A stretch of DNA of 64,000 bases, taken from assembly GCF_010500615.1 (NCBI RefSeq), contig NZ_JAAGNX010000001.1, positions 620,001 to 684,000 of the forward strand. Direction: 5' to 3'. Both the position numbers and the translations under genes were made by a program. The notes beneath the pieces are model-generated. The model saw only the letters and a program-made list of their open reading frames with translations. It made no database searches and was not told the origin of the DNA. Source of the DNA: Oceanipulchritudo coccoides. Its GTDB lineage: Bacteria > Verrucomicrobiota > Verrucomicrobiia > Opitutales > Oceanipulchritudinaceae. Of the stretch, positions 50,365 to 54,594 are shown in pieces (position 1 is the stretch's first letter; each line of letters begins with the position of its first letter).

Positions 50365-51000
50365 ATGTCTTTGTCCAAGTCAGTTGACGGTTCGCTCCCA
50401 GTGGAAGCGGATTCTGCACCTGAGTCTGCAGCCAATGCCGACCAGCTATTGGTCAGCCGGGTTCAGGAAGGTGATGTGGCGGCCTTTGACGTGCTGGTGC
50501 GTAAATACCGCGAACGGCTCTACGGCATTATCTATAATTTGACTTCAAATCGCGAAGACGCGGCTGACCTGACACAGGAAGCCTTCATTAAGGCGTTCAG
50601 TTCGATCAACCGGTTCAAGGGAAAATCCGCCTTCTTTACCTGGCTTTACCGGATCGGGGTCAATACAGCTTTAAGCCATCTTAAACGAAACCGGTTCAGA
50701 CGCTTTTTCAGTTTGGAGACGATCCAAGAGGAAGGCAGCCACGCCCAGGTTTTGGAAACTCTTGCCGCGAAGCACAAATCCGAGAAGGGCGCTTTGTTAA
50801 GCGAGCTTCAGGAAAAATTGAACGAAGCGATGCAAAAGTTGTCTCCTAAGCATAGGACAGTTGTGGTGCTTTTTGAAATAGAGGGCCTGAGTCATCAGGA
50901 AATTGCGGATGTTGTCGGTTGCTCAGTTGGAACCGTCCGGTCCCGCCTGCACTATGCAAAGCAGCAACTGCAAGCGGATTTAAAGCATTTCCTTGATTGA
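50365..51000 (+). CDS. ECF sigma factor, RpoE-like
   Basis: A 211-residue sigma-70-family factor with regions 2 and 4 only. Region 2 includes the segment around DAADLTQEAFIKAF and TWLYRIGVNTALSHLKR; region 4 has LSPKHRTVVVLFEIEGLSHQEIADVVGCSVGTVRSRLHYAK in outline. The next gene starts ten bases downstream and encodes a small membrane protein placed where an anti-sigma factor is expected, and then an HtrA-like protein follows, so an envelope signal is likely. Confidence 0.93.
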   Translation: MSLSKSVDGSLPVEADSAPESAANADQLLVSRVQEGDVAAFDVLVRKYRERLYGIIYNLTSNREDAADLTQEAFIKAFSSINRFKGKSAFFTWLYRIGVNTALSHLKRNRFRRFFSLETIQEEGSHAQVLETLAAKHKSEKGALLSELQEKLNEAMQKLSPKHRTVVVLFEIEGLSHQEIADVVGCSVGTVRSRLHYAKQQLQADLKHFLD

Positions 51001-51010
51001 TTGGAATCCC

Positions 51011-51580
51011 ATGGGGAAAAATAAAAACAAAGATACAGTTACCGTAGAAGCGCTCTTGCGAATCAAGCGCGACGAACGTCCGTCGGAAGACTTCTGGAAC
51101 GATTTTGAGAACGATTTCGAGCGTCGACGTCTCCATGCCCTCCTCGAGCGGGACACTTTGCGGCATTCATTTTGGAATCCGTCCTTGAAGGCTGCGATGT
51201 TTGGCCTCCCGGCTCTCCTGATAATTGCTGTCAGCGTTTCATGGGTGCAGAGCAACGATCGCTTTACCTTTGGGCAGGGTGTCACTGAGGAGCAAGTGGA
51301 GCCCCTGCAGGTCAATTCCCTGACGGTGAGTCAAAATGACATTAGCCCGGTTGGATTTGCGGATACAGCACTTCCATTGGAGAGCGACAAGGTTTCCAGT
51401 CAATTTGTTGTTGATGCAATTGAAACCAATTCCTCACGTCGTGTTAATTTCCAGAAGGTGCTCTACACGCCTGCTTTGCATTTGTCAGCTCCGACTGGAT
51501 CATCCTATGTCCGGGACAGTTTCTCTACCCGCAATTATGGTGTGACCACAGCGGACCTGAAACTCGGTCGCAACTTCTAG
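51011..51580 (+). CDS. Single-pass membrane protein, putative anti-sigma factor
   Basis: From the ATG at 51011, 189 residues. The N-terminal ~50 residues are charged and cytoplasmic, including RPSEDFWNDFENDFERRRL; one transmembrane helix follows (about 60-76), then a ~110-residue periplasmic part. There is no zinc HxxxCxxC motif of the ZAS family. Its place right after an ECF sigma gene, and the FW-rich N-terminal helix, suggest a sigma-binding role. I do not recognise a named family. Confidence 0.6.
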   Translation: MGKNKNKDTVTVEALLRIKRDERPSEDFWNDFENDFERRRLHALLERDTLRHSFWNPSLKAAMFGLPALLIIAVSVSWVQSNDRFTFGQGVTEEQVEPLQVNSLTVSQNDISPVGFADTALPLESDKVSSQFVVDAIETNSSRRVNFQKVLYTPALHLSAPTGSSYVRDSFSTRNYGVTTADLKLGRNF

Positions 51581-51590
51581 TAACCCGGTC

Positions 51591-52781
51591 ATGTTGCGAG
51601 CTTTATCCGGATCTCGGTTTGGCCGTTTTCTACTTCCATTCATTTTCCTGGTTGGAAGTCTTGGAACACCGCTACTTGGAAACGATGAACTGCGTGGGCT
51701 GGAGGAAAGACTTGTCTCCCTCTTTGCCGAAAACCAGTCAGCCATGGTCCGGGTGAAGGCTGTCTATCCGTCGAAGAACAAAGCGGAGGGCGAGGAAGTT
51801 CCCCAAGTGGTGATTGGGACGGGCTTTTTCATCAGCCGCGAAGGACTGATCATCACGAACGCCAGCATTGTTTATCAACCGCTACGTGTCTGGATCGAGC
51901 ATGACCAGATTGCCTACAGTGCAGAGGTCCTTGGAGTGGATGAGCGAACCAATATTGCATTTCTGCGAACGCACTCCTTGCCAAGCAACTTCAGCTTTTT
52001 TCATCTGACGGATCGGCCTGACTTGCCACCTGTGGGAAGTTTTATCCTTCGTCTGAGCATGCCGCTCGAGTTTTCCGCCAGTCCAAGCTTTGGGATGGTT
52101 TCCGGATTTGAGAGTCGGTTTGGAGAGCGCTTTTTTCCGTGTACTTACGTACGGACGACAATTCCCGCTGGTCCTGGAGATGGCGGTTCGGCCTATGTCG
52201 ACCTCACTGGACGGCTTCTCGGAATCCAGGTTGGCTCGCTCCCGGATGTTGCTTCCAGTTATATTCTCCCTGCCCGGGCGGCCCTTCGCATACGCGATGA
52301 TATCCTGTTTTCCGGACAGGTCACTTACGGGTGGATCGGATTTGAGGTGGATATCGAAACCAGCATCGAGAACGGAAAACAAATTGTCCTGAACGAGATT
52401 TTCGAGGATTCCCCAGCCATGAAAGCAGGGTTGATCGAGGGAGATATTCTTGAGCAGATCGGTGACTACCAGATTCATTCTCTTGATGACTTGAGAAATG
52501 CGATGTTCTACACACGCGTTGGCCAATATGTGGACATCCGCATCGTGCGTGATGGTGAACCGAGACGGATGAGCGTTAAAATGGACGCGCGTCCCAAGGA
52601 TGAGCCGATGGAAATCATTGAATCCGTGGAAATGGATCCGGCAGTTGATCCCTTGAAGGAAAAACCTGAATCAGCGAATGAACAGCCCATGCCGTTCGAA
52701 AAGGATTTTAATCAATCCCCTGAAGAGGAATCTGCTGGTGCGGAAGATTCTGTTTCCGGGAATCCCGAGCCCGCTTCCTGA
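51591..52781 (+). CDS. HtrA/DegP-like pseudoprotease with PDZ domain
   Basis: A 396-residue exported protein with a signal peptide (about 1-30), a trypsin-like HtrA domain (about 45-240), a PDZ domain (about 250-332) and an acidic, disordered tail. All three catalytic residues are changed: the TNxHV histidine is S92 (ITNASIV), the TDIA aspartate is N121 (ERTNIAFL), and the GNSGG serine is G198 (GPGDGGSA). The fold blocks are otherwise well kept. It probably binds rather than cuts, for example sensing misfolded envelope proteins for the upstream sigma pair. It is the last gene of that operon. Confidence 0.85.
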   Translation: MLRALSGSRFGRFLLPFIFLVGSLGTPLLGNDELRGLEERLVSLFAENQSAMVRVKAVYPSKNKAEGEEVPQVVIGTGFFISREGLIITNASIVYQPLRVWIEHDQIAYSAEVLGVDERTNIAFLRTHSLPSNFSFFHLTDRPDLPPVGSFILRLSMPLEFSASPSFGMVSGFESRFGERFFPCTYVRTTIPAGPGDGGSAYVDLTGRLLGIQVGSLPDVASSYILPARAALRIRDDILFSGQVTYGWIGFEVDIETSIENGKQIVLNEIFEDSPAMKAGLIEGDILEQIGDYQIHSLDDLRNAMFYTRVGQYVDIRIVRDGEPRRMSVKMDARPKDEPMEIIESVEMDPAVDPLKEKPESANEQPMPFEKDFNQSPEEESAGAEDSVSGNPEPAS

Positions 52782-53347
52782 TCGATTGTAGGCCGGGCAA
52801 GCTCCATGGCGGCCTCCCATTCCCGTCCCTCTTCAGGCAAGCCGTATTGATCGAGGTAGATGCGCAGCGCATTCCGTTCGGGCGGATTTTCTGCAACCAT
52901 TGGATCCGGCGGAAGGGAAGGAATTGCTGTCTTGCTGATGTACCACATGGCCCATGCTCGTTGGCGCTCCAAGAATTGGTCGCAAGGCATTCGAGTGGCT
53001 TGATGAATAAAACTGACCCGGGGGTTGCCGAGAAATCCGTCGCCTGCGTAATGACGCAAAAACCAGGCAAGAGCGCGGTATGGCTGTCGGAAAGGTTCGC
53101 CGAGTTTGTCCGGATCCAGATAAATGGCCCGGCAGAGCGCCAGAATTGCCCGGGCTGGCAACTTGATCGTCCAGAGATAATTCGCATAGGTACAGGCAGC
53201 CTGAAACACAGCTTTTTCACGATGCTCCCCGGTCTCGTGCTCAACCCGAAGATTGCGAAAGGACATTTTTTCTTCCGGGGCAGGGAGTAGCGGGCAGGGA
53301 GGTGTCGCTCTTGCGGGATTCTTTTCCGTTGAGGTTGGATCAGCCAT
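52712..53347 (-). CDS. Conserved-type protein of unknown function
   Basis: From the ATG at 53347 (a GTG at 53356 is also open), 211 residues. No domain recognised. It has an aromatic, helix-rich middle (TYANYLWTIKLPARAILALCRAIYLDPDKL region) and a Pro/Ser/Glu-rich tail. No signal peptide or membrane segment is clear. Its 3' end overlaps the HtrA-like gene by 70 bases on the opposite strand. The good codon structure and helical middle support a real gene. Confidence 0.6.
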   Translation of the reverse strand: MADPTSTEKNPARATPPCPLLPAPEEKMSFRNLRVEHETGEHREKAVFQAACTYANYLWTIKLPARAILALCRAIYLDPDKLGEPFRQPYRALAWFLRHYAGDGFLGNPRVSFIHQATRMPCDQFLERQRAWAMWYISKTAIPSLPPDPMVAENPPERNALRIYLDQYGLPEEGREWEAAMELARPTIDQEAGSGFPETESSAPADSSSGD

Positions 53348-53370
53348 GCTACACATTCAATAGGCTTTAA

Positions 53371-54090: not shown

Positions 54091-54594
54091 TTAGAATACC
54101 GGTTCGAAGACCACGGTAGCGCCTGGGAAGACAACTCCGTTTGAGCCTTCGCTCCAGATCTCGTCGTTGATGAGGACTTTGAACTCGATTTCGTTGGTCA
54201 CGGAAGTGCTCTTCCATACCCACTCGTCGGCGCCCTTGTTCGTCATCACTTCACCGGCGGTCCAGGTCAGTCCGGAGCTACCCCCACGAATGTAGAGCTC
54301 ATTGCCGTATCCGGCATCGAATTTCGCGATGACGGTGGTAACGACGGGCTTACGCTTCACAGGAGCCTTTTTCCGTACGGCCTTCTTGGCGGGTGCCTTC
54401 TTGGCGACTACCTTCTTGACGGCGGTCTTCTTGACGGCGGTTTTCTTTGGAGCCACTTTCTTTGTGGCGGTTTTCTTTGGAGCCGCAGCCTTTTTCACAG
54501 CCTTTTTGGCGGCTGTCTTCTTGACGGCGGTTTTCTTAACGGTGGCAGACTTGGTTGTCTTGCGGGCCGTTTTCTTGGTTGGTGCTTTTGCCAT
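54091..54594 (-). CDS. Histone H1-like lysine-rich tail fused to a small beta domain
   Basis: A 167-residue protein in two parts. Residues 1-82 are a low-complexity basic tail of KKTA/KKAV-type repeats like histone H1 or chlamydial Hc1/Hc2 proteins. Residues 83-167 form a compact beta-rich domain (around GNELYIRGGSSGLTW to WSEGSNGVVF) that resembles starch-binding CBM20/CBM48 folds in its GN-x-LYIRG opening and late aromatic residues. The tail likely binds nucleic acid; the ligand of the domain is not known. It lies between a DUF374 gene and phoU. Confidence 0.8.
   Translation of the reverse strand: MAKAPTKKTARKTTKSATVKKTAVKKTAAKKAVKKAAAPKKTATKKVAPKKTAVKKTAVKKVVAKKAPAKKAVRKKAPVKRKPVVTTVIAKFDAGYGNELYIRGGSSGLTWTAGEVMTNKGADEWVWKSTSVTNEIEFKVLINDEIWSEGSNGVVFPGATVVFEPVF

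Follow-up and report, generated by a model that had tools for sequence, protein, structure and literature searches.

Envelope-stress sensing is understood chiefly in Proteobacteria, in which the shielding and sensing job that we propose below for a single protein is split between RseB/MucB, whose fold is unrelated to HtrA, and DegS/AlgW. DegS (E. coli) and AlgW (P. aeruginosa) are periplasmic proteins with a protease fold and one PDZ domain; they serve an RpoE-type sigma/anti-sigma pair as active site-1 proteases with intact triads, and their PDZ domains read Phe-ending C-termini. DegP has chaperone activity, and mucD, which encodes the serine protease MucD, is located in the algU operon. We know of no MucD or mycobacterial HtrA that binds an anti-sigma C-terminus. 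HtrA genes beside sigma/anti-sigma genes are already known, as are pseudoproteases derived from HtrA. In Mycobacterium, an HtrA gene lies in the sigma/anti-sigma operon rseA-htrA-tatB (PMC10027907), and in magnetotactic bacteria the HtrA-derived pseudoprotease MamO has a non-catalytic role and activates MamE-dependent proteolysis (PMC4794232). In a literature search that covered few subscription papers, we found no report joining an HtrA pseudoprotease with a sigma/anti-sigma cluster, and none on a cluster of this composition in Verrucomicrobia.

Here we describe such a cluster in a window of 64,000 nucleotides (the whole stretch analysed) from Oceanipulchritudo coccoides, in which a gene for an HtrA homologue that has lost its catalytic residues (pseudo-HtrA) follows the genes for an extracytoplasmic function (ECF) sigma factor (SIG) and a putative anti-sigma factor (ANTI). 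Like DegS and AlgW, the pseudo-HtrA would be a periplasmic protein with a protease fold and one PDZ domain, and we propose for it both an RpoE-type sigma/anti-sigma pair as partner and the reading of Phe-ending C-termini. Unlike them, its family has lost His, Asp and Ser, and the ligand that we propose for it includes the tail of the anti-sigma factor. It also differs from RseB/MucB, the fold of which is unrelated, in being an HtrA. A place in a sigma/anti-sigma cluster is shared with MucD and the mycobacterial HtrA, but these are serine proteases, whereas the pseudo-HtrA has no triad. With MamO it shares an origin as an HtrA-derived pseudoprotease; MamO, however, acts in forming magnetosomes, has a di-histidine motif on its surface that binds metal, and activates MamE, whereas the pseudo-HtrA is linked to a sigma/anti-sigma pair, and a search for a MamO-type di-histidine site gave no His column that is both conserved in the family and present in the window protein. 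Kept beside a stress sigma factor and a putative inhibitor with a PDZ-type tail, the dead HtrA has the appearance of an inactivated protease turned stress sensor.

Results

The pseudo-HtrA gene (51591..52781, + strand) has an ATG start 10 bp downstream of the stop codon of the previous gene and encodes 396 aa, comprising an export signal, a degenerate trypsin-like domain (residues 76-212; 51816..52226, +), one PDZ domain (residues 249-330; 52335..52580, +) and a disordered acidic C-terminal tail. Pfam places Trypsin_2 at residues 76-212 over the entire length of the model (E 4e-14) and PDZ_2 at residues 249-330 (E 3e-11). The top PDB sequence matches are HtrA, DegP, DegQ, AlgW and DegS (98 distinct chains at E<1e-3), and the score against TIGR02037, the model of active Do proteases, is 118.9 bits, below the curated cut-off of 416.2. 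The AlphaFold2 model, built with 37 orthologues, has a core pLDDT of approximately 97 and is matched by Foldseek to DegP/DegQ/DegS over approximately 300 residues, with E values down to 5e-25. By its modelled structure the protein is a member of the HtrA/Do (S1C) fold family, with a trypsin-like double beta-barrel followed by the PDZ domain, and the two Pfam matches and the confident model core bear out the first-pass annotation, which had called barrel and PDZ domain intact. Pfam and NCBIfam scans gave HtrA and PDZ families only and no match to the RseB/MucB family. The predicted carboxylate-binding loop of the PDZ domain, residues 247-251 (GWIGF), is conserved in the family, and G250 is almost invariant among pseudo-HtrAs.

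All three catalytic residues are replaced. S92 (51864-51866, +), N121 (51951-51953, +) and G198 (52182-52184, +) fall in the columns of the TNxHVV His, the DxxTD Asp and the GNSGG Ser, as had been read from the sequence at first pass, and the pairwise alignments with PDB matches agree on this with a multiple alignment that includes 15 active HtrAs encoded in this genome and in related ones. The replacement extends to the family. His is found at position 92 in none of approximately 98 distinct pseudo-HtrAs from the order and the class (102 non-intact sequences minus four PDZ-only matches: L004, two in L278, and L279, RseP), and an intact triad likewise in none, while the pooled sequence set holds 47 HtrAs with an intact HDS triad. 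The His is absent from all of more than 50 aligned members of the order, and 20 of 20 class-level members inspected have no triad. In the family alignment, 35 of 37 rows have Asn in the Asp column, and one other member (L039) has the only Asp. In L016 and L018 a GESGG motif puts Ser at the nucleophile position; His and Asp are still absent from both.

Two readings would take the substitutions at less than face value. One is that the triad has been misaligned and the protein is an active protease with a relocated active site, for which the Ser kept at position 198 in 9 of the 102 non-intact matches could be cited. No His is conserved across the family, which rules out an alternative intact triad: the best-conserved His column is position 86 (70%), where the window protein has Leu. 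The Ser at position 200 is substituted in over half of the members, and the fold model aligns with DegP/DegQ over 300 residues. We regard a relocated active site as very improbable. More improbable still is that the gene, with its three missing catalytic residues, is a non-functional relic of a protease gene, since the frame is open in most of more than 100 genomes, core and PDZ residues are conserved and the cluster is kept; class-wide conservation rules out a decaying gene.

Within the GTDB family of the source organism, orthologues with approximately 49-69% identity are present in 16 of 17 genomes. In the order (Opitutales/Puniceicoccales), orthologues of lower identity occur in well over 100 of 223 genomes, and a class-wide profile search recovered the family at approximately 30% identity in many further families; in the contig search, the single protein as query gave no match and a closer alignment as query did. 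Genomes with a pseudo-HtrA also encode other HtrAs in which the triad is intact. Beyond the class, the best-scoring matches are ordinary intact-triad HtrAs that lack such a sigma gene beside them; the exception is L218, a genome from another part of the phylum in which a pseudo-HtrA and the sigma gene are both present. The intact-triad relatives found are separate genes, either normal DegP-type paralogues or HtrAs of other classes that do not lie beside this sigma factor, and the orthologues with normal triads that would have counted against the first-pass annotation did not turn up. A single clade of pseudo-HtrAs is compatible with the data: the tree that holds them together has the higher likelihood (p-AU 0.76, with the four PDZ-only rows included). 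For dN/dS within the genus only one pair was computable (dN 0.27, dS 3.0), and the ratio was not used because synonymous sites are saturated. The first-pass annotation had taken the joint loss of the triad as a sign of a retained, non-proteolytic function, and this finds support in the class-wide triad-less orthologues, their single type of gene cluster and the active HtrAs elsewhere in the genomes.

The family reaches a much degraded form in f30 (Verrucomicrobiales-like), where a homologue occupies the same place (E 1e-15 to 1e-29; profile-profile comparison with the pseudo-HtrA family, E 9e-27). These most degraded members, of about 285 aa, are also modelled with an HtrA and PDZ fold. In genus g89 of f30, probably Akkermansia, a degraded HtrA-PDZ homologue of approximately 290 aa lies behind the same sigma and membrane-protein genes (L180-L182, L215 and L216), and the C-terminal residue of the membrane protein is Met.

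The genes SIG, ANTI and pseudo-HtrA lie in this order with gaps of 10 bp each, so that an ECF sigma factor and then a single-TM membrane protein precede the pseudo-HtrA. SIG (50365..51000, +; 211 aa; Pfam Sigma70_r2 and r4_2) is RpoE/SigW-like, and its best NCBIfam match is RpoE at E 1e-47, under the equivalog cut-off. ANTI (51011..51580, +) has 190 aa when read from the ATG at 51011, which is a likelier start than the TTG at 50993 that opens the longest ORF. Its N-terminal, predicted cytoplasmic segment carries the conserved motif LLxLKRxExPxxxFWxxF and is followed by one TM helix (approximately residues 67-85 of the longest reading) and a variable, predicted periplasmic part ending in ...LKLGRNF; a TM peak with KD >=1.3 is found in 95 of 97 homologues. 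Because Pfam and NCBIfam gave no match and no known anti-sigma domain was detected in ANTI, we infer its role as an anti-sigma factor from its position, its topology and the conserved cytoplasmic segment.

The linkage is strict. The order SIG, ANTI, pseudo-HtrA is kept across the class at approximately 30% identity, with SIG upstream in 36 of 40 loci of the order and in all 19 class loci with enough flank. In the locus set, ANTI reading frames in the GC-rich loci L111, L240, L246 and L249 were set by the motif, and the paralogous sigma loci L187-L192 were left out. The four order-level loci without an upstream sigma gene are L068, L081, L084 and L085; the pseudo-HtrA is found behind an apolipoprotein N-acyltransferase-like gene in L081 and behind a polyphosphate-kinase-like gene in L085 (both f17), and L084 is near a contig end.

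ANTI ends in an aromatic residue. Its C-terminal Phe codon (51575..51577, +) would encode the proposed PDZ ligand, and Phe or Tyr ends ANTI in 90 of 97 de-duplicated pseudo-HtrA loci, whereas either residue ends 4.8% of the remaining ORFs in those loci (28 of 581), a single sigma factor of 97 and no pseudo-HtrA. Five of the seven exceptions end in Met or Leu. Among the last three positions, the final one is by far the most constrained. MucE, which activates AlgW, has the C-terminus WVF, and YYF-type peptides of outer-membrane proteins activate DegS (PMC8545111); in sequence, the aromatic tail of ANTI resembles these known HtrA-PDZ ligands. Switches between Phe and Tyr showed no co-variation with PDZ groove residues in phylogenetically independent pairs, in which relatedness is controlled. 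At groove position 249 co-variation was suggestive by raw counts and disappeared in such pairs.

Of 40 orthologous SIG-ANTI loci without a pseudo-HtrA, 28 have no Phe/Tyr end (one clade of 24, three f51 loci and one f63 locus, the rest of f63 having both pseudo-HtrA and tail) and 12 have one (nine f14, two f50 and one f51). The sigma tree requires at least 5 changes in the pseudo-HtrA state and at least 9 in the tail. Of three independent contrasts with support, one to two show tail and pseudo-HtrA changing together and none shows the opposite, numbers too few for significance. In the nine f14 and two f50 loci, Phe tails occur without an adjoining pseudo-HtrA, and something else must therefore read the tail there; f14 genomes encode other HtrA-like proteins, none of which scores as a member of the pseudo-HtrA family.

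Discussion

The operon context and the C-terminal signature of ANTI suggest a function for the pseudo-HtrA. It may well be a class-wide pseudoprotease that serves an RpoE-like envelope-stress sigma factor as its sensor in the periplasm and as a co-regulator, through its PDZ domain on the ANTI tail. SIG would be held by ANTI, a single-pass membrane protein with a periplasmic tail ending in Phe or Tyr, and the exported pseudo-HtrA, in which the HtrA fold is kept and cutting is lost, would bind this aromatic C-terminus with its PDZ domain and shield ANTI. When outer-membrane proteins accumulate, their C-terminal Phe tails would compete for the PDZ domain, and exposed ANTI would be open to regulated proteolysis by separate enzymes, first an active HtrA or Prc and then RseP, by which SIG would be freed. 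RseP, Prc and a normal HtrA are all encoded in the genome. Somewhat more tentatively, we suggest that Verrucomicrobiia use a tail-clamp, in which the PDZ domain of the dead HtrA grips the anti-sigma factor by its aromatic C-terminus and lets go when tails of outer-membrane proteins compete. If true, one pseudoprotease would unite the shielding role of RseB with the PDZ sensing role of DegS.

In the leading alternative, the aromatic tail is a degron that an active PDZ protease reads, either HtrA or the tail-specific protease Prc. The pseudo-HtrA would then work on a different part of ANTI, or would recruit or activate this protease in trans, in the way that MamO activates MamE. The genome encodes both Prc and an active HtrA, the dead HtrA MamO does activate MamE-dependent proteolysis (PMC4794232), and the Phe tail is kept without a linked pseudo-HtrA in f14 and in f50 g116. 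Yet the 24-member clade, f51 and f63 have mostly lost the tail where the pseudo-HtrA is absent, despite HtrA-type matches in those genomes, and the tail thus goes more closely with the pseudo-HtrA than with ordinary HtrAs; we consider the degron rather unlikely. A general periplasmic chaperone or adaptor for outer-membrane proteins would need no anti-sigma regulation at all, its place in the operon reflecting stress regulon membership only, as for mucD in the algU operon. Such a role would fit with the established chaperone activity of DegP and with HtrA genes in sigma-factor operons elsewhere, for example rseA-htrA-tatB in Mycobacterium (PMC10027907). However, it leaves unexplained both the aromatic tail of the neighbouring ANTI and the strict linkage to SIG and ANTI across the class, which persists despite the extreme sequence drift in f30, and it seems to us distinctly unlikely.

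With a sensor and co-regulator role for the pseudo-HtrA, much of the class would appear to have a non-catalytic protease fold as dedicated partner of a sigma/anti-sigma pair, and Akkermansia probably has it too, in a very degraded form. The C-terminal Phe/Tyr of ANTI is a simple and directly testable handle on this, and the sister clades without the pseudo-HtrA gene are natural controls. Pseudo-HtrAs are likely annotated by homology as trypsin-like or DegP-like serine proteases, which would be misleading.

Neighbouring genes and additional loci

In L163-L171 (f14), ANTI is longer, at 270-300 aa, and its end in most loci resembles LYDSIxRxGxxxxSVSIKF, with no pseudo-HtrA after it; the gene that follows is often fumarase-like or encodes a small conserved protein. 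Upstream of the cluster, a scan of the window for ECF promoter patterns gave no match between the upstream gene and SIG. Polyprenyl-synthetase-like and CPBP-like genes recur upstream in part of the order, and other outer genes are shared only with close relatives. Downstream, a 214-aa protein with no Pfam or NCBIfam match is encoded on the opposite strand (52712-53356, -) and its gene overlaps the end of the pseudo-HtrA gene; it is found only in close relatives. Further downstream (54091-54594, -), a protein with a lysine/alanine-rich N-terminal repeat (AKKTAVKKTA...) and a globular-looking C-terminal part has orthologues near the cluster in close relatives.
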